Shown: in pieces, positions 12,634-16,114 of the stretch | Layout of the letters: each line of letters begins with the position of its first letter | Position numbering within the stretch: position 1 is the stretch's first letter | Assembly (NCBI RefSeq): GCF_024385525.1 | Contig: NZ_JANFLU010000010.1 | Span: 62,001-126,000, forward strand | Direction: 5' to 3' | Source: Arthrobacter sp. zg-Y238 | GTDB lineage: Bacteria; Actinomycetota; Actinomycetes; Actinomycetales; Micrococcaceae | Length of the DNA: 64,000 nt | Notes under the pieces: generated by a model | Told to the model about the DNA's origin: nothing | Databases searched by the model: none | What the model saw: only the letters and a program-made list of their open reading frames with translations | Position numbers and translations under genes: made by a program

Positions 12634-13373
12634 GTGCTCCCGCATCGCTGCCCGCGCGCATCCTGAACCAGGGCCGCTATGAGGCCCTGACGATGCTGCG
12701 CAACGGTGAACAGCTGATCCTCGCCGTGGTCCTGCCGCTGCTGGCCATGGTGGCCCTGGTGGTCACCCCACTGCTGGACGGTTACGGAACCAGCCGGATC
12801 AACATGGCTGCCCCCGGCATCTTCGCCCTCTGCGCAATGTCCACTGCTTTTACCGGGCAGGGCATCGCCACCGGCTTTGACCGCCGGTACGGGGTGCTCC
12901 GCTACCTGTCCACCACTCCCCTGGGCCGCACCGGCCTGATTGCCGGGAAGGTCATTGCGGTCCTGGCCGTCCTGGTCATCCAAGTGGTGCTGGTCTCGGT
13001 TGCGGCGCTGCTGTTCGGCTGGCAGCCGGAGCTGAGCGGGTTGCTGCCCGCCGCCGTGCAGCTGGTGCTGGGCGCGGTGGCGTTCACTGCCCTGGGCCTC
13101 CTGGTCGCCGGGACCGTACGGCCCGAGGCCACCTTGGCCATTACCAATCTGCTGTGGATCCTCCTGGCTGCCGCCGGCGGTATCATCATCCCGGTAGGCA
13201 ACCTGCCCCATGTACTGCAGCCGTTTATCGAGGTCCTCCCCTCCGCGGCCCTTGGTGACGCACTGCGCTCGGCCCTGATCGACTCGCAGTTCAACATTTC
13301 CGCCACGCTGATCCTTCTGGCGTGGACAATACTGGGCGGCCTGGGTGCTGTCCGCTGGTTCAAATGGAGTTAG
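12630..13373 (+). CDS. ABC-2 type transporter permease
   Basis: A 247-residue membrane protein with about six hydrophobic segments, the first beginning near residue 30 (LILAVVLPLLAMVALVVTP) and the last at the C-terminus. The central motif FDRRYGVLRYLSTTPLGR is the conserved cytoplasmic loop of ABC-2 permeases. The start is a TTG at 12630 whose bases overlap the TGA stop of the ATPase (TTGA); no ATG or GTG fits better. It forms the membrane partner of the preceding ATPase. Its stop lies within 6 bp of the ctaA start, so the three genes form one operon. Confidence 0.85.
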   Translation: MSAPASLPARILNQGRYEALTMLRNGEQLILAVVLPLLAMVALVVTPLLDGYGTSRINMAAPGIFALCAMSTAFTGQGIATGFDRRYGVLRYLSTTPLGRTGLIAGKVIAVLAVLVIQVVLVSVAALLFGWQPELSGLLPAAVQLVLGAVAFTALGLLVAGTVRPEATLAITNLLWILLAAAGGIIIPVGNLPHVLQPFIEVLPSAALGDALRSALIDSQFNISATLILLAWTILGGLGAVRWFKWS

Positions 13374-13378
13374 AAACC

Positions 13379-14389
13379 GTGTCACAGACCTCGGCCGGTG
13401 TCCCCGCCCGGCAATCGAACAGTCCGCTACCGGTGGCCGGACGCCTCATCCGCAACCTTGCCGTTGCCTCACTGGTGGCCAACATAGTAATCGTGGTGAC
13501 CGGCGGTGCCGTACGCCTGACTGCGTCCGGACTGGGTTGTCCCGAATGGCCGCTGTGCACGGCTGATTCGCTGGTCACGACCCCGGAGATGGGGCTGCAC
13601 GGCGTCATCGAGTTCGGCAACCGGCTGCTCACTTTCGTGCTGACGGCCATTGCCTTCGCGATGGTCTTCTCCGTGTGGCGCCTGCGGTCCGAACGCCGCG
13701 ATCTCTGGTGGCTTTCCGTTGCCCTGCTGGCCGGCGTCCCGGCCCAGGCCGTCATCGGCGGGATCACCGTCCTGACCGACCTCAACCCGTGGGTGGTGGG
13801 CCTGCACTTCCTTGCCTCCACCGTCATGATCACCGTGGCCGTGGTCATGGTGAACCGCTCAAGGCTTTCCGCGATGGATCTTCAGGCACGCCATGCGCCG
13901 CTGGCAGACAAGAGCCTCCGTCCCGTCCTGGGCGCCATCGGTGTCCTCTCCGCCCTGACCGTGGTGCTGGGCGTTGTGGTCACCGGATCCGGACCGCATG
14001 CCGGCGACCATGGAGCTGCCCGCAACGGCTTGAATCCGGATCTGATTACGCGCATCCACGTAGTGCCCGTTTACCTGCTGGTCTTTGCGCTGGCCGTGGC
14101 CCTGTACCTGGTGTTCCGCCGGGCGACCGATGCCCGGGTGCGCAAGGCCGTGATGGTGCTGACCGTCGTCGTACTGGCACAGGCAGCCATCGGCTACGTG
14201 CAGCACTTCCTGCACCTGCCCATTGCCTTGGTGGCCCTGCACATGCTCGGTGCCTGCCTGCTGACGGCCGCTGCGGCCCAGGCCGTCTACATCGGCTTCA
14301 ACAAGCAGGTTCCCGGTGGAGCCGCCATCGCAGTGCGGCAGGCACGGCGGGCAGGAGCTGGCCGGAAGGCTGGGACCGTTCGCAAGTAA
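13379..14389 (+). CDS. ctaA: Heme A synthase, COX15/CtaA family
   Basis: CtaA oxidises the methyl group of heme O to make heme A for aa3-type cytochrome oxidase. The 336-residue membrane protein has eight hydrophobic segments in two four-helix halves. It shows the family motif VTGGAVRLTASGLGCPEWPLC near residues 40-60, HGVIEFGNRLLTF (histidine ligand and arginine), VVVTGSGPHAGDHG and two more histidines in HLPIALVALHMLG. The GTG at 13379 has a GGAG sequence 9 nt upstream; an ATG at 13364 is the alternative. It follows the ABC permease by 5 bp. The heme O synthase ctaB lies convergently 786 bp away, beyond a repeat field. Confidence 0.94.
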   Translation: MSQTSAGVPARQSNSPLPVAGRLIRNLAVASLVANIVIVVTGGAVRLTASGLGCPEWPLCTADSLVTTPEMGLHGVIEFGNRLLTFVLTAIAFAMVFSVWRLRSERRDLWWLSVALLAGVPAQAVIGGITVLTDLNPWVVGLHFLASTVMITVAVVMVNRSRLSAMDLQARHAPLADKSLRPVLGAIGVLSALTVVLGVVVTGSGPHAGDHGAARNGLNPDLITRIHVVPVYLLVFALAVALYLVFRRATDARVRKAVMVLTVVVLAQAAIGYVQHFLHLPIALVALHMLGACLLTAAAAQAVYIGFNKQVPGGAAIAVRQARRAGAGRKAGTVRK

Positions 14390-14406
14390 CGGGCGCATGC
14401 CTATTG

Positions 14407-14446
14407 AAGGGCCGGACTCCCCGCGGGGTCCGGCCCTTCTTTCTTG
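14407..14446 (+). terminator. Rho-independent terminator of the ctaA operon
   Basis: AAGGGCCGGAC (14407-14417) pairs with GTCCGGCCCTT (14428-14438), an 11-bp perfect stem followed by TCTTTCTTG. It begins 17 bp after the ctaA stop. This is a strong intrinsic terminator for the rightward transcript. Confidence 0.85.
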
Positions 14447-14468
14447 TCCGGGGTACTGCGTGCGGGAG

Positions 14469-14692
14469 GGTTGTCGCCCGGTCGGTGTCCCACGCCCTGG
14501 TGCTGATGATGCGGGTGCGACCCCGGCAGCCCCAGGAGTCCCAAAGCCTGGGATGCTGGGGGTTGTCTCCCGCACGGCGTCCCACGCCCTGGTGTTGCTG
14601 ATACGGGGGTGACCCCAGCAGCAAGAGGAGTCCCAAAGTGTGGGATGCTGTGCACGCAAGGGGTTGTCTCCCGCACGGTGTCCCGCTGCCAG
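14469..14692. repeat. Imperfect tandem repeat, about 92-101 bp unit, two full copies plus a partial third
   Basis: Units start with GGTTGTC at 14469, 14561 and 14662, so spacing is 92 then 101 bp. Shared blocks in order are GTTGTC-CCCG, GGTGTCCCACGCCCTGGTG, TGCTGAT, GGGTG-GACCCC, AGGAGTCCCAAAG and TGGGATGCTG. The AGTCCCAAAG and TGGGATGCT blocks form a small stem (TCCCA/TGGGA) in each unit. No start codon with a ribosome-binding site is associated, and the ctaA terminator sits just before. I read it as non-coding. Confidence 0.8.
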
Positions 14693-14709
14693 GGAAACCT
14701 GTGTCGGGC

Positions 14710-14866
14710 GTGCTGGTTGTACAGATAACGGGGTTATGCGCGGGCCCGGGGGTGCTGGTTGTACAGATAACGGGGTTATGCGCGGGCCCGGCGTGCTGGT
14801 TGTACAGATAACGGGGTTATGCGCGGGCCCGAGGGTGCTGGTTGTACAGATAACGGGGTTATGCGA
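14710..14866. repeat. Four near-identical 41-42 bp direct repeats
   Basis: Units begin with GTGCTGG at 14710, 14752, 14793 and 14835 (spacing 42, 41, 42). Each unit has GTGCTGGTTGTACAGATAAC, then GGGGTTATGCGCGGGCCCG; the fourth loses the terminal part after ATGCG. Differences are confined to the last two to four bases, so copying is recent or the sequence is constrained. Every unit holds the dyad ATAAC-GGG-GTTAT and the palindrome CGGGCCCG. The spacers are too short and invariant for a CRISPR array. Confidence 0.9.
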
Positions 14867-14894
14867 CCTTCTTGGCCCCGTTATCTGTACAACC
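14840..14894. other. 19-bp perfect inverted repeat closing the array
   Basis: The fourth direct unit contains GGTTGTACAGATAACGGGG (14840-14858), and its exact reverse complement CCCCGTTATCTGTACAACC lies at 14876-14894. The 17-nt loop is TTATGCGACCTTCTTGG. The result is a 19-bp perfect stem made of a repeat unit and an inverted fifth copy, a strong hairpin in either transcript between ctaA and ctaB. Confidence 0.85.
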
Positions 14895-15000
14895 GGCGAC
14901 AAGGGAAACCCATCGGGCCACGCGGTGCTCCCCGATGAGGAACGGGGTGCTGTAACAGGCACGTAGGACGTTCCGGGTTAGGCGGCTTCAATACTCCCTG

Positions 15001-15027
15001 CGAACTCTGCGAACTCTGCGAACTCTG
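15001..15027. repeat. Three tandem copies of a 9-bp unit
   Basis: CGAACTCTG is repeated exactly three times, flanked by a partial CTG before and CGA after. It lies in the same non-coding stretch between ctaA and ctaB. It looks like slippage, and I see no associated promoter or gene. Confidence 0.85.
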
Positions 15028-15077
15028 CGAGCCGGGAACTTCGTTGCCGCCGTTCCGGAACGCCCGGAGCGCGCGTG

Positions 15078-15122
15078 GCAACCAAGAAGCCCGCAACCAA
15101 GAAGCCCGCAACCAAGAGTCCC
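15078..15122. repeat. Three tandem copies of a 15-bp unit
   Basis: GCAACCAAGAAGCCC occurs at 15078 and 15093 and, with two changes, at 15108. Read rightward from a GTG at 15075, the repeats encode VATKKPATKKPATKSP followed by a basic tail ending at a TAG at 15177-15179, just inside the 3' end of the convergent ctaB. The Lys/Ala/Pro/Thr composition recalls histone-H1-like tails. There is no convincing ribosome-binding site, so I treat it as repeat DNA, possibly a decayed gene end. Confidence 0.7.
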
Positions 15123-15132
15123 GCACACAACA

Positions 15133-15161
15133 ATGGCCGGACCCCGAAGGGATCCGGCCAT
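15133..15161 (-). terminator. Terminator of ctaB
   Basis: On the leftward transcript, ATGGCCGGA pairs with TCCGGCCAT (9 bp), extended by a CCC/GGG after a one-base bulge, closing on a CTTC-type loop, and followed by TTGTTGTG. It lies 14 bp past the ctaB stop. Confidence 0.7.
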
Positions 15162-15175
15162 CGGAAAGCGGAAGG

Positions 15176-16114
15176 CTAGAGCAGCGCGCCGCCCACGAAC
15201 GGATCCACGGCCAGGGCCAGGAAGAGGATCGTGAGGTAGCTGATGGACAGGTGGAAGACCTTCATGGCGGACTTGTCATTGAGGTCTTCGCGCTGCGCCT
15301 TGGAGTGCAGCTTGTGGGCCTCGGCCACGAACCAGCCGCCGGAGAGCAGTGCGGCGATGGTGTAGACCCAGCCGGCACCGCCCACGGGAACCAGCAGCAG
15401 CGAGCAGGCCACGGTGGCGTAGGCGTATAGCACCACCTGGACGGAGACGAGCTTGGCGCCGGCCACCGCACCGAGCATCGGCACGCTGGCGTTGCGGTAG
15501 TCCTCGCCGTACTTCATGGACAGCGGCCAGTAGTGCGGCGGTGTCCACAGGAAGATGATCATGAACAGGATGATGGCCGGCCATTCCACCTTGTCGGTGA
15601 CGGCAGCCCACGCGATGAGTACCGGCATGCAGCCGGCGGCGCCGCCCCAGACAATGTTCTGGGTGGTGCGGCGCTTGAGGATCAGGGTGTAGAAGACCAC
15701 GTACAGGAGGATCGCGCCGAGGCCCAGGAGGCCGGTCAGCGGGTTGGCCCCGAACCAGAGCAGGGCAATGGCGACAACGCCCAGCACCCACGCAAAGACC
15801 ATGGCTTCCCGCGGAGACACCTCGCCGGTGACCAGCGGACGGTTCTTTGTCCGCTTCATCAGCTTGTCCATGTCGCGGTCGATATAGCAGTTGAAGGCAC
15901 CGGCACTGCCTGCTGCCAGTGCGCCGCCGATCATGGTGACCAGGATCAGGCCCAGGGAAGGAAGTCCCTGCTCGGCGAAGATCATGGTGGGAAGGGTAGT
16001 CACGAGCAGGAGTTCGATGACGCGCGGTTTGGTGAGCGCCACGTAAGCCCGGACCTTGCGGCCCGCCGTCATCTTCCCCGTGTTGACCGGAGACTCGGCA
16101 TGCTGGGTAGTCAC
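15176..16114 (-). CDS. ctaB: Protoheme IX farnesyltransferase (heme O synthase)
   Basis: CtaB attaches a farnesyl group to heme B to give heme O, the precursor used by CtaA. The 312-residue UbiA-type prenyltransferase has about nine membrane helices. The two Asp-rich motifs are visible: [20 protein letters not shown] near residue 75 and a [13 protein letters not shown] loop near residue 205. The N-terminal [19 protein letters not shown] is characteristic of the family. It starts at GTG 16114. It is convergent with ctaA rather than in the same operon, separated by a repeat-rich spacer, and divergent from the tkt operon across 427 bp. Confidence 0.95.

Follow-up and report, generated by a model that had tools for sequence, protein, structure and literature searches.

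The repeat array lying between ctaA and ctaB in Arthrobacter sp. zg-Y238 (studied within a window of 64,000 nucleotides, the whole stretch of DNA analysed) belongs to a dispersed family whose units keep to a helical register: in each of the three relative orientations of neighbouring units (same strand, facing and back to back), the common alternative spacings are about one helical turn apart. We interpret these units, with moderate confidence, as phased binding sites for a putative sequence-specific DNA-bending or DNA-wrapping protein, located mostly at the 3′ ends of genes. Extragenic repeats are usually classed as either neutral or mobile; those described here follow a geometric rule, combining whole-turn spacing in three orientations with several clade-specific versions of the site.

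The array comprises four direct units of about 42 bp and an inverted fifth copy, in agreement with the sequence-only reading of this DNA. The direct units (GGTTGTACAGATAACGGGGTTATGCG for the first) occupy positions 14715–14740, 14757–14782, 14798–14823 and 14840–14865 of the forward strand, spaced by 42, 41 and 42 bp, and their 19-bp cores (14715–14733, 14757–14775, 14798–14816 and 14840–14858) are identical; TRF reported a tandem period of 42 bp at the array (score 294). The inverted core (14876–14894, reverse strand) makes with the fourth unit the perfect 19-bp stem noted earlier (22 nt at 95%). These two are the forward and reverse members of a facing pair, their 5′ anchors (14843 and 14891) being exactly 48 bp apart, and they delimit a 49-bp module (15-bp core, 19-bp spacer, 15-bp core; 14843–14891) which is the most frequent facing geometry outside the GTGC genomes described below, where the distance is 58. 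The ATAAC-GGG-GTTAT dyad formerly ascribed to each unit is present in all four, but it is a lineage feature rather than a general trait, since the GTCC and GTGC subtypes of related genomes mostly lack it.

Pfam matches confirmed the convergent flanking genes: ctaA on the left (heme A synthase family, PF02628, 1.7e-23; 13322–14389, forward strand, start codon uncertain) and ctaB on the right (UbiA family, PF01040, 5.9e-68; 15176–16114, reverse strand). An intrinsic-terminator-like stem stands 3′ of ctaA, apart from the array (14406–14439, forward strand; 15-pair stem with a T-rich tail), and a GC-rich hairpin, identified by eye, adjoins ctaB at about 15134–15160; the array thus fills the stretch between two gene ends. 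A terminator scan of 14300–15260 reported two overlapping sites at 14406–14439 only, and no stem with a T tract in the array. Other repeats share this gap: a second family with a 92-bp period (14468–14650), whose word TGGGATGCTGTGC recurs 100–101 bp apart at several loci of other species, including their ctaA-ctaB gaps; and short 9-bp and 15-bp tandem repeats on the ctaB side (14998–15030 and 15078–15125).

The genome-wide search for the core demonstrated that it is not unique to this locus: the 14-base core GTACAGATAACGGG has 40 exact copies in the 3.55-Mb genome (13 forward, 27 reverse; 0 for the reversed-pattern control), and the zg-Y238 genome has at least 14 arrays with two units or more. 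The largest of those read (locus L013, 14 units) lies between a ribosomal S14 gene and a gene for an HU-like protein; at another locus (L009), two arrays flank an amino acid permease gene, one on each side. The exact core is present in 11 of the 29 genomes of the genus. The word preceding AGATAAC is clade-specific (GTAC, GAGC, GTGC or GGGG); the GGGG form, anticipated from a single gap, was later confirmed by a search in three genomes (G004, G006 and G010). GNNCAGATAACGGG was detected in 21 of the 29 genus genomes (controls 0 or 1), with at least two copies in 18; at least two copies of either GNNCAGATAACGGG or the GGGG form were also found in 21, and in eight of the 29 no subtype searched reached two copies.

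In the host's taxonomic family, facing pairs at two mismatches or fewer were present in 20 of the 295 genomes, corresponding to 4 of the 32 genera. The GTCC form marks one further genus (G241, G256, G037, G232 and G283), a GTGC-like form another (G080), with one GTAC pair also found in G053, and the fourth genus contributes a single unconvincing palindrome (G250). When 84,980 species were scanned for the pattern (N15-25), 107 stretches matched; among the 80 matches listed, the 11 from Arthrobacter and the one from Pseudarthrobacter all have the 37-bp form, and the lengths in other taxa are scattered over 33–43, as chance would give. One stretch in IMG/VR contains a facing pair, with a 24-bp spacer that is off the common register; a virus-borne element was set aside. 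Literature listings contained no description of this repeat family; an Arthrobacter genome figures as one row of a table in PMC12306157.

The ctaA-ctaB gaps of related genomes, fetched by ctaB homology, contain either full arrays (four, five and three direct units plus the inverted one in G000, G009 and G016, respectively), a single facing pair (G017, G019, G020, G025, G027 and G028) or variant units (G002, G003, G007, G015 and G018). The gaps of the other genomes showed no units at four mismatches or fewer, except for one isolated match in G024. Several of these gaps carry other repeats, all recognised by eye: a third inverted-pair family around GTGCAGTTGATGCTG / CAGCATCAACTGCAC in G016 and G021 (L045 and L043), and another repeat family with words like CATCATCCCGACACTCGG in G008 and G022 (L056 and L068). 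The latter words are in tandem at about 31 bp in G022, where the present family was not found; the ctaB match in G022 is split into two overlapping pieces, as though by a frameshift (L068/L069).

The new finding is the spacing, measured between the 5′ anchors of neighbouring units. A position-weight scan yielded 286 units from 59 stretches, compared to 2 hits in 132 kb of shuffled sequence; eight of these stretches (L215–L222) came from a facing-pair search with N15-22 and were dropped in a recount, leaving a first set of 258 units in 51 stretches chosen by the core word alone. Same-strand neighbours in this set are mostly 41 bp (63 cases), 31 bp (24) or 42 bp (13) apart, followed by 40 (2) and by 30, 52 and 71 (1 each); facing neighbours are 48 bp apart in 71 of 74 cases, the others being 58 (2) and 89 (1); back-to-back neighbours are at 23 (11), 33–35 (5), 43–44 (3) and 21 (1). 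When periods of 4 to 40 bp were tried on pairs closer than 400 bp, the best was 10.2 bp (R = 0.85 for the same strand, 0.91 for facing and 0.73 for back-to-back pairs).

The GTGC genomes G003 and G002 (161 units in 22 stretches, also chosen by core word; 0 hits in 76 kb of shuffled DNA for the scan of the GTGC and other further sets) use other members of the same series. Their usual module is + + − − at 31, 58 and 31 bp: same-strand distances are 31 (65), 41 (27), 51–52 (3) and 29, 30, 32 and 40 (1 each), facing distances 58 in 27 of 28 cases (59 in the other), and back-to-back distances 34, 43–46 (10) and 54. The period is 10.3 bp (R = 0.91, 0.95 and 0.86, respectively), so that a period of 10.2–10.3 bp was obtained in three orientations in two sets chosen regardless of spacing. 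Such one-turn steps between the alternatives are not readily explained by inheritance. In the small GGGG set (29 units, by core word), same-strand neighbours are 41 bp apart in 12 of 14 cases (40 and 43 in one each) and facing ones 48 bp apart in 7 of 7, with periods of 10.4 bp on the same strand and 20.7 bp for facing pairs; GAGC same-strand distances are 31 (8) and 41 (5).

Additional searches agree with these distances, with some exceptions. When 15–22 bases were allowed between facing cores, 19 were found in 38 of 39 pairs; in the ctaA-ctaB gaps, whose choice was blind to spacing, eight genomes have a facing distance of 48, three (G003, G007 and G018) have 58 and G027 has 46; and a pair in G007 is off register at 50 bp (L217). 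The facing distance of 48 seen throughout in the GTCC genus, in G080 and in 12 GAGC stretches carries no weight, because these were picked with that distance fixed by the design of the search; the same distance was equally fixed in L259, L282 and L283, which also include one direct pair at 41. A further GTCC pair, within an already fetched stretch (L248), is at 48 as well. One G006 array (L267) combines forward and reverse units of different site versions and yet keeps the 41-48-41 arrangement, which favours separate sites over a hairpin.

The DNA between facing sites shows a corresponding periodicity, which is clearest in the longer module. In 25 unique 29-bp GTGC centres (overall AT content 0.34), AT content is 0.64–1.00 at columns 3–6, 12–16 and 22–25 and 0.04–0.24 at columns 7–11 and 17–21, an AT/GC alternation of about 10 bp. 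For the five larger sets, anchor-to-anchor profiles peak at 10.2–10.8 bp, and for G080, with its two sequences, at 16.3. Taken alone, the 19-bp spacers have periods of 8.4–12.7, and the phased AT pattern is consequently clear in the GTGC form only.

The arrays are extragenic and rarely separate divergent genes. None of 549 units falls inside genes called with a purpose-made gene caller, and the 114 gaps containing arrays are convergent in 51 cases, tandem in 54 and divergent in just 9, so the argument of the sequence-only reading against a promoter role holds broadly; by locus group, the figures are 27 convergent, 22 tandem, 5 divergent and 2 unclear. The fairer yardstick is provided by the window's own 51 gaps (6 convergent, 40 tandem and 5 divergent), since control gaps beside convergent arrays cannot themselves be convergent and give P values that are too strong. 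Of 16 pairs in the GTCC genus, 9 separate convergent genes whose stop codons are both no more than 80 bp away. The 20% of the chromosome nearest to dnaA holds 1 of 79 sites or arrays, compared to 15.8 expected, in eight genomes (G003, G007, G022, G009, G020, G016, G028 and G024) that share loci and with the 20% limit set after the data had been seen; in the three genomes with complete exact-pattern lists (G003, G007 and G022) the count is 1 of 42, compared to 8.4 expected. A terminus-centred placement, suggested by clustering in G003, was dropped, as dnaA of G003 lies at 3.41 Mb.

Taken together, the helical register in three orientations, the conserved asymmetric cores, the bendable GTGC centre and the 3′ placement point to a cooperative DNA-bending or DNA-wrapping protein. 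Each unit of about 22 bp (roughly ATCC or ATCT, four bases, one of the words GTAC, GAGC, GTGC, GTCC or GGGG, and AGATAACGGG) would be one asymmetric site, and one putative double-strand DNA-binding protein would recognise the sites in all of the at least 14 arrays of this genome. The sites would be presented on one face of the helix: three or four turns separate direct neighbours, facing ones are spaced by 48 or 58 bp with a bendable centre between them, and back-to-back ones by about 23, 34, 44 or 54 bp. The putative protein may assemble cooperatively on them, bending or wrapping the DNA into a compact nucleoprotein complex. Its role is probably architectural, because the arrays are extragenic, chiefly occupy the 3′ ends of genes, rarely separate divergent genes and, in the genomes examined, keep away from dnaA; it might form a boundary, topological or transcriptional, that separates convergent or successive genes. 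Of the possibilities raised in the sequence-only reading, the array of protein-binding sites is therefore the one favoured by the phasing at about 10.2 bp and by cores that change more slowly than their spacers. Our confidence stays at an even balance, since the periods persisted once the loci chosen by spacing had been removed; on the other side of that balance are the shared ancestry of the spacers, the palindromic arms of the GTCC genus, the off-register pairs (50, 46, 89 and 21) and the eight array-poor genomes.

A more specific version is put forward only tentatively: the arrays could represent a chromosome-boundary system of the Micrococcaceae, in which a putative protein with a clade-diverged recognition word wraps insulator-like complexes at gene 3′ ends and spares the origin-proximal fifth of the chromosome. 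The divergence of that word between clades would then have taken place together with dozens of sites per genome, a proposal that we regard as equally tentative.

The main rival is a REPIN- or MITE-like family, which we consider rather unlikely but a serious competitor. Under this alternative, the facing pair is or was a non-autonomous mobile palindrome, the direct copies arose by local duplication, the mobiliser is some other transposase, and the fixed spacing is the length which that transposase needs. REPINs are defined in PMC3116915 as inverted doublets with conserved ends, a fixed distance and a variable middle, and the facing pairs at spacing-blind loci resemble them in their nearly constant distance (48 or 58 bp in the proportions given above). 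The spacers at different loci are 48–61% identical, compared to 30–35% for shuffled letters, indicating that the loci share ancestry and that the family was copied around; part of the regular spacing may accordingly be inherited. The 103 arrays form 56 locus groups, of which 39 were found in one genome only (fetched stretches alone being compared). Furthermore, the facing arms of the GTCC genus are more complementary to each other than re-dealt arms (0.94 vs 1.68 mismatches, 0/500). A weaker excess is present in the GTAC/GAGC arms (1.32 vs 1.79, 0/500; 1.30 vs 1.48, 5/500, without GAGC), so that part of the family has a genuine tendency towards palindromes.

Other observations speak against such an element. 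The Y1 transposase domain PF01797 was absent from all 29 genus genomes and from seven relatives (the control matched in 5 of 14), and a RAYT-borne REPIN was rejected, as none of these 36 genomes had the domain; the small mobile repeat of the sequence-only reading thus keeps the related spacers in its favour and lacks the Y1 transposase. The remaining 17 locus groups are common to at least two genomes, and the array beside maf is common to genomes of three subtypes (GTAC, GAGC and GTGC), their maf genes being 85–99% identical to that of G000. An inherited element would not be expected to show one-turn steps in three orientations. The tags at the foot of REP palindromes are GTAG or CGTC (PMC3733652), not those found here (GTAC, GAGC, GTGC, GTCC and GGGG), and a word search of that paper gave no word starting with GTAC.

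The comparison of two strains of one species (G000 and G009) also argues against the mobile element, since at orthologous positions the cores are retained and the spacers diverge. Across seven orthologous loci, 12 of 519 core positions and 67 of 780 spacer positions differ (P = 1.3e-6), the cores being nearly four times slower to change. Nine orthologous loci and one mismatched pair (L017/L181) had been aligned, and L009 and L014 were excluded from this sum because their labelled spans cover genes; for the same reason, the unfiltered totals over all ten (core 33/797, spacer 198/4461) show no difference. The number of units differs at 7 of the 9 orthologous loci, so copy number is not fixed between strains. 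The near-identity of the units had been attributed to recent amplification or selection, and both apply: unit number changes while the cores stay fixed.

Less probable still is that the arrays are docking sites for DNA gyrase, comparable in function to BIME-2, with gyrase wrapping phased, bendable DNA at the 3′ ends of genes and so relieving positive supercoils. According to PMC6379681, the gyrase motif of E. coli is 130 bp long with 10-bp phased G/C variation, and BIME-2 elements and the DNA downstream of transcribed units are enriched in gyrase. The 41-48-41 module spans 130 bp between its outer anchors, AT blocks recur at about 10 bp (G/C phasing being evident in the 29-bp GTGC centres and rough in the other subtypes, and over the wider span confounded by the repeats themselves), and the convergent and 3′ placement agrees. 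However, the gyrase motif is called degenerate in that source, whereas about 14 bases are nearly invariant here, with clade-specific variants, and many arrays are asymmetric (+----) or up to 14–16 units long.

An RNA element, in which the facing pair would serve as a bidirectional terminator or a structured 3′ end, is very unlikely. The strand of the array (206 nt) does fold far better than shuffled sequences (z = −5.85, 0/200), and the GTCC genus offers the closely convergent pairs and well-matched arms already mentioned. Against this, ctaA has its own T-tailed stem, on account of which the array was rejected as the ctaA/ctaB terminator, and ctaB has its adjoining hairpin (by eye). The facing arms of the GTGC genomes are identical in only 1 of 22 unique pairs and average 3.0 mismatches out of 15, compared to 2.53 when re-dealt; and in 75 unique GTAC/GAGC pairs there is no excess of complementary changes at the inner stem columns 17–28, although such an excess exists at columns 3–5, 7–9, 11, 12 and 16. 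No Rfam family reached its gathering score in 14000–16000, and a known RNA was rejected since the best match (mir-3622, 33.1 bits) is far under its cut-off of 78. Helical spacing and direct copies play no part in this model. The structured RNA suggested in the sequence-only reading is therefore disfavoured, helical steps meaning nothing to RNA, even though the GTCC arms match better than re-dealt ones.

Ordinary functionless tandem repeats would account for the variable unit number between the two strains, but are hardly credible given the same core and helical geometry at 56 locus groups, the several clade versions and the conservation of cores relative to spacers.

The regular geometry makes a candidate DNA-organising protein directly searchable, and the subtypes supply naturally varied sites and spacings with which to study how a protein co-evolves with dozens of sites. 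If complexes on these arrays do separate convergent genes as boundaries, they would amount to a bacterial equivalent of insulators or roadblock sites. Among described repeats, the nearest are the REPIN/REP sequences with RAYTs of Pseudomonas and E. coli, which the arrays resemble in being extragenic and dispersed, with some tandem clusters (PMC3116915); they differ in their frequent direct units at 31 or 41 bp, in the one-turn alternative spacings and in the non-complementary GTGC arms. With BIME-2 and strong gyrase sites they share the placement at gene ends, a 10-bp phased composition that is evident in the GTGC centres, and the span of about 130 bp (PMC6379681), but the arrays described here have a long, nearly invariant and clade-specific core word and are open-ended, with up to 14–16 units.

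Plasmid iterons, parC/ParR sites and Lrp-type wrapped operators present several sites in helical phase. The arrays are like these systems in having phased sites that would be expected to form one nucleoprotein complex; unlike them, they are chromosomal and are distributed over many unlinked gene ends instead of belonging to a single operon, origin or partition locus.
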